From Muribaculaceae bacterium (GTDB lineage Bacteria > Bacteroidota > Bacteroidia > Bacteroidales > G3-4614), in contig JAFYRT010000044.1 in NCBI GenBank assembly GCA_017546805.1, positions 1 to 46,586 of the forward strand: a stretch of DNA of 46,586 nt. Direction: 5' to 3'. Made by a program: the position numbers and the translations under genes. Positions within the stretch are counted from its first letter, which is position 1. Each line of letters begins with the position of its first letter. The notes beneath the pieces are model-generated. The model did not search any database and was not told the DNA's origin. It saw only the letters and a program-made list of their open reading frames with translations. Below are positions 20,047 to 24,993 of this stretch, in pieces.

Positions 20047-21468
20047 ATGGAAATTTTAAAAGAGTTATATAAAACCGAGAGAGGCGAATATCCTAAAACC
20101 ATTACCAAATTATCAGGGGATGGTTCGAACAGATGTTATTACAGATTGTCTTCCGAAGATATTTCATATATTGGCGTTGCAGGTGTTTCAAAAGAAGAAA
20201 ACTCTGCTTTTATAACAATTGCAAATACTTTTAATGAGTGTGGTATTGATGCCCCCAAAATTATCGGGGTGAGCCAAGATATGATGCACTACATTCAAGA
20301 GGATTTGGGTGATGACTCGCTTTTTACCATTCTTAAAGAGAGCAGAGAGTGTGGAGTTTTTAGCGAAGATGATAGCGAAAAACTTTGCCGAGTTATGGGG
20401 TTGCTTGCCGATATTCAATTTAAGGTTGGCGAGAAGTTAAATTTTGATATTTGTTACCCTATTGCTGAATTTGACAAGACCTCTGTTTTTTGGGATTTGA
20501 ACTACTTTAAGTATTGTTTTTTAAAGAACACCAGCATTGAAATTGACGAACCTCGTTTGGAAGTGGAGTTTTCTATACTTTGCGACATACTTTTGGAGGA
20601 GAACGACAATACATTCTTATATAGGGATTTTCAGTCGCGTAACGTTATGTGGCATAACGACAAACCATATTTTATAGATTTTCAAGGTGGCAGACGCGGT
20701 CCTATATATTATGACGTGGCTTCGTTTGTTGGACAGACTCGAGCTAAATATAGCGAGGAGATATACAAAAAGATGATTGATGCATATTTGGAATCTCTAT
20801 CTAAATACAAATGTATTGACAAAGAGTGTTTTATTGAGCGATTAAACATATTCAGAGTTTTCCGTTTGCTACAAACTTTGGGCGCTTATGGATACAGAGG
20901 TTTGTTTGAACACAAAAAGGCTTTTATCGACCCAATTCCTTTAACTCTTGCCCAGCTATACAATTCATTAGAGAATTGCAACATTGAATTACCATACCTA
21001 AAAAGCACCATTAATGAGATTAAGGAGTTGCCTCGATTTAAAAGCGACGATTACAAAGGTCTGACAGTTGATATTATGAGCTTCTCATTCCACAGAGGTA
21101 TTCCTGACGACTATTCGGGCAATGGCGGTGGCTTTGTTTTTGATTGCAGAGCTATTCACAATCCGGGGAGATATGCAGAGTACAAAAAGCTTAATGGCAT
21201 GGATGCTCCCGTTATTGAGTTTTTGGAACGAGAAAGTAATATTGCCGAGTTTTTAGACAGCGCATACTATATGGTTGACAATATGGTCGACACATATATG
21301 AAACGTGGTTTTACCCATATTCAAATTTGTTGTGGATGCACAGGGGGGCAACACCGTTCGGTTTATAGCGCAGAGCATATTGCAAGGCATATTGCAGAGA
21401 AGTTTGGTGTTAGAGTTAATGTTAACCATATTATGTTGAACCGCTCATATACCATACAAGAGAGATGA
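20047..21468 (+). CDS. AmgK-like sugar kinase fused to a RapZ C-terminal domain
   Basis: A 473-residue fusion. Residues 1-310 are an aminoglycoside-phosphotransferase-fold kinase of the AmgK/COG3178 kind: SGDGSNRCYYRL near 23-34, catalytic loop LYRDFQSRNVMW (D194, N199), metal-binding DFQGGRRGPIYYDVASFVGQ from D211. AmgK phosphorylates the anomeric carbon of MurNAc or GlcNAc. Residues about 338-473 match the C-terminal domain of RapZ, including FSFHRGIPDDY, FDCRAIHNPGRY (366-376) and CGCTGGQHRSV (429-439), the loops that bind glucosamine-6-phosphate in E. coli RapZ. The N-terminal nucleotide-binding half of RapZ is absent and the basic RNA-binding tail is weak. The stop overlaps the next start (ATGA), coupling it to a MurU-like enzyme. 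I infer a recycling kinase with an amino-sugar sensor; this function is not shown. Confidence 0.85.
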   Translation: MEILKELYKTERGEYPKTITKLSGDGSNRCYYRLSSEDISYIGVAGVSKEENSAFITIANTFNECGIDAPKIIGVSQDMMHYIQEDLGDDSLFTILKESRECGVFSEDDSEKLCRVMGLLADIQFKVGEKLNFDICYPIAEFDKTSVFWDLNYFKYCFLKNTSIEIDEPRLEVEFSILCDILLEENDNTFLYRDFQSRNVMWHNDKPYFIDFQGGRRGPIYYDVASFVGQTRAKYSEEIYKKMIDAYLESLSKYKCIDKECFIERLNIFRVFRLLQTLGAYGYRGLFEHKKAFIDPIPLTLAQLYNSLENCNIELPYLKSTINEIKELPRFKSDDYKGLTVDIMSFSFHRGIPDDYSGNGGGFVFDCRAIHNPGRYAEYKKLNGMDAPVIEFLERESNIAEFLDSAYYMVDNMVDTYMKRGFTHIQICCGCTGGQHRSVYSAEHIARHIAEKFGVRVNVNHIMLNRSYTIQER

Positions 21469-22205
21469 ATGCTATTATCTTAGCGGCAGGACTTGGTACT
21501 CGTTTGCGACCCCTTACCGACAACACCCCAAAGGCTTTGGTTGAGATTGGTGGCAAGACAATGCTTGAATACCAAATTTTGAAACTTAAAAAGGCCGGAT
21601 TCAACAACATTGTTATAAACATACACTATTTTGGCGAGCAGATTATCGAGTTTCTTGAAAGGAACAACAACTTTGGTTTGAATATTAAAATTTCGGACGA
21701 AAGGGATTTGCTTTTAGATACAGGTGGAGGTATTGCAAAAGCGGGTAAATTGTTCGATAACGATACTCCAATTCTTGTTCATAACGTGGATATTTTTACA
21801 AATATAGACTTAAAGATGGTTTATGATGAAGGGGCAAAATACGACGTTATGCTCGTTACCGAAAAGCCTCGGTCAAACAGAGTCTTATATTTTAACAACA
21901 ATGTTTTGTGCGGTTGGAGAAACAAGAACACCGAAGAGACTATTTTAACCACACAGAAGTACTCGATAAACCCCAACGACGAACGTGCTTTTATGGGAAT
22001 ACATGTTTTGAACCCCAGAACAATAAATTTAATGAACAACTACAAAGAGGAATTCCCTCTTATACCATTCTATTTGAATGCTTCTAAAAACAGGGAGTTG
22101 AATATTGGTGAACTATTCTGCGGTAGCGACACTGTAAGAATTGATGCAGGAAAACCCGAGGTCCTTGATGCTTGTAAAGAGCTAATAGAAAAGTTCTATT
22201 TATAA
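21465..22205 (+). CDS. murU: MurU-like sugar-1-phosphate nucleotidyltransferase
   Basis: A 246-residue nucleotidyltransferase. The N-terminal signature LAAGLGTRLRPLTDNTPKAL binds NTP, followed by LDTGGGIAKAG and LVHNVDIFTN (metal Asp), as in MurU, the uridylyltransferase for MurNAc-alpha-1-phosphate. The short length without a left-handed helix tail excludes GlmU and favours MurU over full-length RmlA. It overlaps the kinase stop by four bases, reproducing the AmgK-MurU pair that returns MurNAc to UDP-MurNAc without passing through de novo MurA/MurB. Substrate assignment rests on this pairing, so a GlcNAc-1-P or other hexose-1-P role is possible. Confidence 0.78.
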   Translation: MNAIILAAGLGTRLRPLTDNTPKALVEIGGKTMLEYQILKLKKAGFNNIVINIHYFGEQIIEFLERNNNFGLNIKISDERDLLLDTGGGIAKAGKLFDNDTPILVHNVDIFTNIDLKMVYDEGAKYDVMLVTEKPRSNRVLYFNNNVLCGWRNKNTEETILTTQKYSINPNDERAFMGIHVLNPRTINLMNNYKEEFPLIPFYLNASKNRELNIGELFCGSDTVRIDAGKPEVLDACKELIEKFYL

Positions 22206-22416: not shown

Positions 22417-24993
22417 TCATAAAACAACCTTTACCACATCGTTATTTGCTTTAACAAGATATACTCCTTTAGGAAGATTGCCAACATCAAACGTATCATC
22501 TGCTGTTATGACGTGAGTTAATACAATAGCTCCTTTTAGGTTATATACTGTCACTTGGATTGGTTCTGATACTCCGCTTACAACAAGTGCTCCTCCGCTT
22601 ATAAATACATTTGGTTTTCCCTCTTTAAAACTATCCTCCACTCCGGTAAAATCGACCTCGATGAAGTTTGTAAATTGATTCCATTCTGCTGCTTGTTGAT
22701 ACAATGACAATGAACCCATTGGAATATATACAGGAATATCCCTTTTTGCCCATGTGAAATTACCATAATCCGCAACAGGAGGTTGAGAGGCGTAAGAGAT
22801 TATTTGTTGTATTTTGTTTGAGAGGAGTAATGCATTAGGTTCTAAAATCTCAACTGAAGGACCTATTTCAAGATGAGTAAGAGAATCACACAACACAAAT
22901 GCACCGTATCCTAACCTTTTTGTTGCATATGGTATTGATAAAGATTTTATTCTGATATTATAAAAAGCATACATTTCAATTGACTCTGTTGCCTTTGGTA
23001 TATTAACATCTGACAAAGAGGTACAATCATAAAATATTCTCTCAGGTATTACTTTTATTCCTTCAGATAATTTTACTTTCTTCAATGATGAACAAGAACA
23101 AAATATTCTCTCTCCCAAGGTTTTTATAGAATTTGGCATTTCTATACTTTCCAAAGCAGAGCACATATAAAAACAACTTTCGCCTATCTCTGTTAATCCG
23201 TCACATAGTTTTACTGTTTGCAGATTTTGACATTGATAGAATGCAAATTTTTGAAGGCTTGTAACACCTTCCGGTAATTCAAGTGCTTTTAATTTGTTAC
23301 AAGCATAAAATGCATATTCACCAACCTCTCCATTCAATTTTGAGATTGTAATATTTTCCAAATTTCCACATTCTGCAAATATTGCGTATGGTAATGATGT
23401 GTTTATATTTATATCAGCATCTGTTAATGAAGAACATTGTGCAAATGCATAATCGCCTATATAATTTATATTCTCCCCAAGAGATATACTTTTTAATGAA
23501 GACGCACTAAATGCATATTTCCCTATAGTATCTAAAGATGTTGGTAATACTACAGTCTCTATTGATGAACATTTAGAAAATACTCGATCTGCAATTTTTG
23601 TAACGCCTTCAGGTATTTCTATATTTGTTACCAACTGATTATTCAAATAGAAATTTTTAGAATATGTCAAAGGATTACTTCCTTCATTTACAATTTGCAT
23701 ATTACACCATTGTGCCAAATCTTTTATATACACTGCTTGTAATTGATTGGCATTTGCAAATGCAGAATTCAAGATTTTTTTAACACCTAATCCTATATGT
23801 AGTTCACTCAATGAGTCACAATTTGCAAATACATTCTCCTCTATCTCTGTAAGAGAATCTCCTATTACAACTGTTTTTAAACTCTTACAATAGTTAAATG
23901 CTTTATACCCTATTGATGTAACACTATTGGGGATAACAAGGTTTGATATTTTACTACAATCTTTAAAGGCTGATTCTCCAATTTTTTCCAACGTACTTGG
24001 AAACTCAACTCCTTTCAATTCAGAACATCCCAAGAATGCAGATGAGCCAATCTTTGTCAATCCTTCATTAAATGTAAATTCACTTAATGAAGAACAATAT
24101 GCAAAAGCAGTACTTGCCACCTCTGTTATTGTTGGCGACACATATATTTGTTTTAAAGATGTACAACTATTGAACAAATCTGTTGAAAAACGAGTAAGAT
24201 TTCCACTATAATTAATTGTTTGGAGTGATGTACATCCGTGAAATACTCCATCTTCAAAAGACTCAATCTCTCCAAAAGTTAAAGTTTGTAGTGAAGTACA
24301 CCCTTTAAATGCATTCTTATTTACTATTTTAACCGATGCAGGGATTGTTACGTTTTTTAATGCTTTGCTATTCGAAAATGCAGAACCCTCTATTGTAGTT
24401 ACAGAATCAGGGATAACTATTGTCTCCAATGAATTACAAACAGAAAACGCCCCTTCTGAAATTGACTTAAGTGAGTTACTTAAAACAACCTCTTTTAATG
24501 CTGAACATTTATTAAAGACATATGATCCCATGCTTATTACATTGTTCGGGATGTTTATGCTTTTTAATAAAGGCATAGATGAAAATGCTTTGCTCACTAT
24601 ATACTTTACGGATGTAGGTATTATTATATTTTCAACCGAATCGCATTCAGCAAAAGCAGAAGAGCCAATTCTTGTTATGGAGTTAGGCATATTTACCACT
24701 TTTAAATAGTCATTGTCTTTAAATGCGTCGGATGAAATTTCTGTTACATCATATTCCTTTCCTTGATATGTAACTTTCTCAGGTATATTTATTTCGCCTT
24801 CATATGAGGCATATGAATTATAACTACGAAAGGTTACTCCTACCGCTTTACCATTGGATGATGATAGTATTTTATAGTAAATCCATTTTCCATCACTATT
24901 TTGCACTGCAAAATCATGTGCTTTAACTGCACCAACAAAGAAGATTATCATAGATATGAAAATCTTGATTTTTAAGAAGTAAGAGTGTTTCAT
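22417..24993 (-). CDS. BspA-like leucine-rich-repeat surface protein with T9SS-type tail
   Basis: An 858-residue secreted protein: signal peptide in residues 1-25 (ends AVKAH), then more than twenty 23-residue LRR_5 (BspA/Treponema-type) repeats with the pattern FxxCxSLxxIxIPxSVTxIGxxAF, and a C-terminal domain of about 70 residues (VFISGGALVVSGV, VTVYNLKGAIV, PKGVYLVKANNDVVKVV) typical of type IX secretion. BspA-family proteins bind host matrix, other bacteria or glycans. The repeats are broken near residue 435 by AQWCNMQIVNEGSNPLTYSK, a segment also common in this family. The promoter has an eight-base G tract next to it, so expression may be phase-variable. Confidence 0.88.
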   Translation of the reverse strand: MKHSYFLKIKIFISMIIFFVGAVKAHDFAVQNSDGKWIYYKILSSSNGKAVGVTFRSYNSYASYEGEINIPEKVTYQGKEYDVTEISSDAFKDNDYLKVVNMPNSITRIGSSAFAECDSVENIIIPTSVKYIVSKAFSSMPLLKSINIPNNVISMGSYVFNKCSALKEVVLSNSLKSISEGAFSVCNSLETIVIPDSVTTIEGSAFSNSKALKNVTIPASVKIVNKNAFKGCTSLQTLTFGEIESFEDGVFHGCTSLQTINYSGNLTRFSTDLFNSCTSLKQIYVSPTITEVASTAFAYCSSLSEFTFNEGLTKIGSSAFLGCSELKGVEFPSTLEKIGESAFKDCSKISNLVIPNSVTSIGYKAFNYCKSLKTVVIGDSLTEIEENVFANCDSLSELHIGLGVKKILNSAFANANQLQAVYIKDLAQWCNMQIVNEGSNPLTYSKNFYLNNQLVTNIEIPEGVTKIADRVFSKCSSIETVVLPTSLDTIGKYAFSASSLKSISLGENINYIGDYAFAQCSSLTDADININTSLPYAIFAECGNLENITISKLNGEVGEYAFYACNKLKALELPEGVTSLQKFAFYQCQNLQTVKLCDGLTEIGESCFYMCSALESIEMPNSIKTLGERIFCSCSSLKKVKLSEGIKVIPERIFYDCTSLSDVNIPKATESIEMYAFYNIRIKSLSIPYATKRLGYGAFVLCDSLTHLEIGPSVEILEPNALLLSNKIQQIISYASQPPVADYGNFTWAKRDIPVYIPMGSLSLYQQAAEWNQFTNFIEVDFTGVEDSFKEGKPNVFISGGALVVSGVSEPIQVTVYNLKGAIVLTHVITADDTFDVGNLPKGVYLVKANNDVVKVVL

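Follow-up and report, generated by a model that had tools for sequence, protein, structure and literature searches.

A RapZ C-terminal domain fused to an AmgK-like kinase in Bacteroidota, and its possible role in amino-sugar 6-phosphate handling during cell-wall salvage

Architecture of the locus

The window, that is, the whole stretch of 46,586 nucleotides that was analysed, encodes on its forward strand a 473-residue protein in which an AmgK-like kinase continues into the C-terminal domain (CTD) of RapZ, followed by a MurU-like gene. The features of this locus are as follows.

20047..21468, + strand: fusion gene, AmgK-like kinase plus RapZ CTD, 473 aa (ORF, family matches, solved relatives, model with pLDDT 92)
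20047..21036, + strand: kinase part, residues 1-330, APH fold, AmgK-like (Pfam and NCBIfam matches; solved chain 3csv)
20623..20643, + strand: kinase catalytic loop RDFQSRN, residues 193-199 (R193, D194, Q196, R198 and N199 invariant in 28 homologues)
20677..20685, + strand: DFQ motif, residues 211-213 (D211 and Q213 invariant in 28 homologues)
21058..21435, + strand: RapZ CTD, residues 338-463 (PF22740, E 6.4e-33; fold matches to E. coli RapZ structures)
21139..21168, + strand: first conserved CTD loop FDCRAIHNPG, residues 365-374 (G374 at the pocket position of E. coli RapZ H190)
21337..21360, + strand: phosphate-pocket loop C431-T-G-G-Q-H-R-S438 (invariance; modelled strand-loop-helix; pocket assignment from PMC5737377)
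21465..21468, + strand: ATGA overlap between the fusion stop and the murU start (ORF coordinates)
21465..22205, + strand: MurU-like nucleotidyltransferase, 246 aa (ORF, family matches, homologue beside the kinase in many loci)

The kinase part matches the APH family (PF01636, E 2.6e-9) and the AmgK models NF045698 and NF045759 (E 1e-10 to 1e-11, at 44 and 41 bits far below the equivalog cut-offs of 500 and 550), and its closest solved chain is 3csv (E 2.6e-11). PF22740 covers residues 340-462, and the NCBIfam RapZ model is matched by the CTD half alone (model positions 145-275). These matches bear out what the initial annotation had read from the sequence, that is, an APH-fold kinase with a D194/N199 loop and a DFQ motif at 211, joined to a RapZ CTD with both conserved loops (FDCRAIHNPG and GCTGGQHRSV, the latter at 430-439); most positions of the four motifs are invariant among 28 homologues. 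The proposed overlap with a MurU-type gene was equally sound, since the ATGA lies at 21465 and the second gene matches the MurU model NF045761 with E 1.3e-37 (130 bits, under the equivalog cut-off of 250).

Modelling of the whole fusion (mean pLDDT 92) returned 3csv as the top fold match, with APH-family kinases leading the list and RapZ lower down. The CTD modelled alone (pLDDT 94.7) matches RapZ structure 5o5s with a TM score of 0.90 by target length. The genes around the pair appear unrelated to it; a Dus-type tRNA dihydrouridine synthase gene lies upstream on the opposite strand, and the other neighbours are surface-protein-like genes. One of the neighbouring ORFs, at 22417-24993 on the minus strand, encodes an 858-aa repetitive leucine-rich-repeat surface protein, BspA-like by eye. 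PADLOC gave no match to a defence system.

Distribution, split forms and public labels

Matches to the fusion were found in 130 of 149 Bacteroidales genomes, mostly over both domains, and a scan of public genomes yielded at least 591 confirmed relatives, of which the 80 listed include records from Acidobacteriaceae, Elusimicrobia, Calditrichaceae, Ignavibacteriales and Chitinophagales. Among these 80 loci, some of which are incomplete, a MurU homologue lies near the kinase in 51, and no other gene is common nearby. This distribution, with records of the same two-domain protein from many genera and from other phyla, and the Pfam matches rule out a chance or annotation artefact, while a contig or frame error is ruled out by the same ORF in a congener (76% identity) and in a Parabacteroides distasonis record. 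The kinase-CTD architecture is real, old and widespread, and it is the norm among gut-type Bacteroidales.

RapZ was not found above the family cut-off in the 70 sampled Bacteroidota genomes, where CTD matches occupy either ORFs of ~480-525 aa or short stand-alone ones of ~135 aa. At least seven genomes (G023, G045, G067, G099, G123, G160 and G179) encode the CTD as its own ORF directly downstream of that for the kinase, with the order kinase-CTD-MurU in G023, G160 and G179, the split loci where downstream DNA was checked. Mapped on the kinase tree, the split state requires six changes, two of them forced by well-supported branches. These separate ORFs suggest that the domain can function as a polypeptide of its own, encoded next to the kinase.

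At least one public record of the fusion is mislabelled as RapZ. WP_005858754.1 (P. distasonis) carries the name 'RNase adapter RapZ', which is misleading because it scores 106 bits against the RapZ model (cut-off 244) and is matched in its CTD half alone.

The domain was also seen in other settings. In G003, a 736-aa ORF (L178:1573-3783) carries a B3/4 domain N-terminal to kinase and CTD. Short stand-alone RapZ CTD genes devoid of the N-terminal half occur on Streptomyces and Planobispora plasmids (L137:4001-4483, L138:3956-4498, L140:2513-2896), the C-x5-R loop being retained in the two that were translated, and Nocardiopsis has similar partial matches. Finally, L115 (G096:C118, minus strand, 490-1854) encodes a RapZ CTD fused to GlmR/YvcK, a regulator that binds UDP-GlcNAc; its contig also codes for a divergent GlmS and may be contamination in G096.

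Conservation of the CTD

When 104 fused CTDs were aligned with E. coli RapZ, the positions corresponding to E. coli D182, R184, N188, D202, C247, T248, G249, G250, H252, R253, S254 and H276 proved invariant or almost invariant. In fusion numbering, the (near-)invariant residues common to E. coli RapZ include C431, T432, G433, G434, H436, R437, S438, D366, R368, D386 and H461, and the loop cysteine (C431, equivalent to C247) is present in all 103 sequences with that column filled. In E. coli, a pocket formed by H190, T248, G249, H252 and R253 binds sulphate or malonate (PMC5737377), and the CTD binds GlcN6P with a KD of 10 nM, closely related metabolites being without its effect (PMC7073468). 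Of these five residues, whose conservation the sensor idea of the initial annotation calls for, four (T248, G249, H252 and R253) are kept, as is the nearby C247. The fifth, H190, has glycine in its place in 103 of the 104 fused CTDs, including the window protein (G374).

Features tied to RNA fared differently. The RNA contacts R238 and K251 of E. coli RapZ are replaced by F422 and Q435 in the window protein, which also lacks the basic C-terminal tail (contacts and tail as assigned in PMC9841335 and PMC7073468) and the N-terminal Walker/nucleotide-binding domain. This agrees with the earlier reading that both the nucleotide-binding half and the basic tail are missing. The alignment thus indicates that the fused CTD retained the phosphate loop and lost RNA features. 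Within the genus, the CTD is 87% identical between the window genome and a congener, versus 72% for the kinase, with dN/dS of about 0.08 versus 0.20 (synonymous sites being near saturation); at nonsynonymous sites, the CTD evolves ~3x more slowly.

The pocket loop reads C-x2-G-x2-R-S and, in the model, its Cys ends a strand (424-431) and its Arg starts a helix (437-453). A loop of this kind between strand and helix is the arrangement found in cysteine phosphatases. The CTD model has no significant match among solved folds except E. coli RapZ structures, with dual-specificity phosphatases appearing at E about 1 only, so the likeness is local and may be coincidence. Among the papers of the library searched, none was found that proposes a cysteine-phosphatase loop for RapZ. 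Published work on the E. coli protein is nevertheless consistent with such a function (PMC9841335): (i) C247A and C247S abolish activity, unexpectedly for C247S, (ii) its authors suggested a catalytic role for the C247 thiol and (iii) a CTD crystal with GlcN6P showed density that is 'likely a chemically transformed product'. The inactivity of C247S and the probable alteration of GlcN6P fit a phosphatase; against this, RNA binding was reportedly lost in the pocket variants and those of C247, with no RNA pull-down (PMC9841335).

Amino-sugar metabolism in the genomes carrying the CTD

GlmS, MurQ and AnmK were not detected in the window genome or two congeners, and a separate full-length RapZ was likewise looked for elsewhere in the window genome and not found. 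All three genomes have NagB, MurA, MurB and GlmM-like genes, and NagA was seen in the window genome and one congener. A divergent NagB-like gene pair (271 and about 663 aa) lies at G000:C38:55281-57235 in the window genome, in which NagB run in reverse may make GlcN6P. The initial annotation had proposed that the fusion tunes the kinase by amino-sugar level and spares the cell RNA-based control of GlmS. The loss of RNA-binding features and the link to amino-sugar phosphates stand, but the second part is moot because the window genome and two congeners have no GlmS, whose absence also rules out a simple GlmS feedback in the window genome. The low dN/dS of the CTD suggests that it is in use in a genus devoid of this enzyme.

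All three genomes encode a MurK-like kinase, which in the window genome (G000:C5:41020-41850) has Ser133-Pro134-Leu135 (numbering by ungapped alignment); these three residues have been linked to MurNAc specificity in the T. forsythia enzyme. Among the genomes sampled, 47 with kinase and CTD were compared with 10 in which the kinase has no fused or adjacent CTD. Within the former, AnmK occurs in 27, a MurK-like kinase in 38 and one or both in 45, whereas neither occurs in any of the 10 kinase-only genomes (Fisher p 1.5e-9; at family level 38/39 versus 0/7, p 1.5e-7; both ignore shared ancestry). Three of these ten come from one distant family, and G096 has its RapZ CTD elsewhere, in the GlmR fusion. 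The kinase tree permits 2-3 independent contrasts only, all in the predicted direction or uninformative, so the co-occurrence cannot reach significance on this basis. A phosphatase needed solely because of AnmK is too narrow an idea, as 20 of the 47 CTD genomes have no AnmK; widening it to AnmK or MurK-like kinases came after the AnmK result and is not an independent prediction. G167 and G179 have a CTD and neither kinase.

MurQ is missing at useful scores from 19 of 21 AnmK+ CTD+ Bacteroidales, weak matches being to the GlmS sugar-isomerase domain and similar, and eight of these 19 (G031, G032, G034, G045, G067, G079, G085 and G115) gave no MupP-like match at E<=1e-3. Distant HAD substitutes may have been missed, since the query was a single Pseudomonas MupP sequence. 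Many sampled Bacteroidota combine AnmK with AmgK/MurU and have neither MurQ nor a MupP-like protein, which leaves MurNAc-6-phosphate with no assigned exit. For T. forsythia, the AmgK/MurU route is stated in the discussion of one paper, which cites other work for it (PMC7670621). AnmK directly adjoins a gene that is MurF-like by eye in L185 (G001:C78) and L187 (G079:C38).

What the CTD might do

Judged by its sequence, the protein would be an anomeric amino-sugar kinase of Bacteroidota cell-wall salvage that carries a RapZ CTD. The ligand or substrate of this domain is probably an amino-sugar 6-phosphate. Our preferred explanation, put forward tentatively, is that it is a MurNAc-6-phosphate phosphatase coupled to the kinase. 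It would (i) bind amino-sugar 6-phosphates, (ii) hydrolyse MurNAc-6-phosphate to MurNAc via its phosphatase-like Cys431/Arg437 loop and (iii) hand MurNAc to the kinase beside it (channelling); the kinase would phosphorylate MurNAc, perhaps GlcNAc, to the 1-phosphate, which MurU would turn into UDP-MurNAc. Hydrolysis by the CTD would thus stand in for the unrelated MupP, which performs this step in Pseudomonas. This explanation draws on the kinase-MurU pairing at many loci, the C-x2-G-x2-R-S loop and (near-)invariant D366, R368, D386 and H461, the E. coli results on C247 and GlcN6P, the CTD genes placed directly after the kinase (some in the order kinase-CTD-MurU), the tracking of AnmK or MurK-like kinases, the AnmK+ genomes with no MurQ or MupP-like match, the Ser-Pro-Leu MurK-like kinase of the AnmK- and MurQ-less window genome, and the stronger selection on the CTD than on the kinase. 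Pulling the other way are a fold that is not among known phosphatase folds, the fact that tight binding of GlcN6P, and not its hydrolysis, is what has been reported for E. coli RapZ-CTD (PMC7073468), the RNA-binding defect of the E. coli variants, other HAD phosphatases that could do the step, the two CTD genomes that have neither 6-kinase and the 2-3 evolutionary contrasts on which the co-occurrence rests. Furthermore, since the window genome has no AnmK, a phosphatase acting downstream of MurK would seem futile there, except if imported sugar is trapped by 6-phosphorylation or if the latter feeds an unrecognised route. One may speculate that G374, which stands where E. coli has H190, leaves space for the lactyl group of MurNAc-6-phosphate.

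The same pocket could plausibly serve an allosteric sensor, in which the CTD would bind GlcN6P or MurNAc-6-phosphate and raise or lower kinase activity, possibly balancing the 6-phosphate branch (MurK/AnmK) against direct salvage to UDP-MurNAc. GlcN6P binding in E. coli with discrimination against related metabolites (PMC7073468), the invariant pocket loop, the fusion itself and the regulatory setting of the RapZ CTD-GlmR fusion on a GlmS contig all suit a sensor, and branch control fits the co-occurrence with 6-kinases equally well. Less easily accommodated are the absence of H190 from every aligned fusion (mostly with glycine there), the CTD being a separate polypeptide in several lineages, the AnmK+ MurQ- gap that a sensor leaves unfilled and the lack of GlmS in the window genus. 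A pure sensor is thus not the sole reading of these sequences, given the phosphatase-signature loop, the separate CTD genes and the tracking of 6-phosphate-forming kinases, and we lean towards the phosphatase. A purely structural role, in which the CTD dimerises the kinase or docks it to MurU and the pocket is a relic, is improbable: the RapZ CTD dimerises by itself in E. coli (PMC5737377, PMC7073468), but conservation across the 104 CTDs is among the highest at the pocket and C-x5-R residues, and the domain evolves more slowly than the kinase. An RNA-binding adaptor that regulates RNA as RapZ does, suggested by homology to an RNA-binding domain and by the 'RNase adapter RapZ' label, is very hard to reconcile with the altered RNA contacts and absent tail, and is the least credible role by far.

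If the CTD acts as a MurNAc-6-phosphate phosphatase, a candidate for the exit of this sugar adjoins the next enzyme of the pathway in Bacteroidota with no MurQ or MupP-like protein; in the eight AnmK+ CTD+ genomes, that exit would be either the CTD or an unrecognised enzyme. Catalysis would also account for the odd E. coli results (an inactive C247S, and GlcN6P chemically altered in the crystal), and how RapZ arose as an RNA regulator could then be tested. It is a bolder and rather unlikely step to propose that the RapZ CTD family constitutes a novel phosphatase class that is cysteine-based and acts on amino-sugar 6-phosphates, used on AmgK as the MurNAc-6-phosphate phosphatase of Bacteroidota and turned into an RNA-linked sensor in E. 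coli. Should the CTD be a sensor, it would represent direct metabolite control of wall recycling with no RNA involved.

Comparison with known systems

The closest known relative of the kinase part is AmgK, the MurNAc/GlcNAc anomeric kinase of Pseudomonas and Caulobacter, with which it shares the APH fold, catalytic residues, MurU neighbour and model similarity, and from which it differs by sub-equivalog scores and the extra C-terminal RapZ domain. With RapZ of E. coli and YvcJ of B. subtilis, the fusion has in common a CTD with the GCTGGxHRSV loop and the D182/R184/N188/D202/H276 equivalents, but it lacks the Walker/nucleotide-binding half and the basic RNA tail and has Gly for H190. MupP, the MurNAc-6-phosphate phosphatase of Pseudomonas, catalyses the reaction proposed for the CTD, at the same place just before AmgK, but it is a HAD-family protein unrelated to the CTD in sequence. 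Cysteine phosphatases (PTP and low-molecular-weight PTP, C-x5-R) have the same C-x2-G-x2-R-S loop between strand and helix, and the corresponding loop binds an anion in E. coli RapZ, but the CTD fold has no significant match to theirs and the His that precedes the Cys in PTPs is absent from it. Finally, the RapZ CTD-GlmR (YvcK) fusion likewise places a RapZ CTD, without the RapZ N-terminal half, on an amino-sugar pathway protein, its partner being a UDP-GlcNAc-binding regulator whereas that in the window protein is a kinase.
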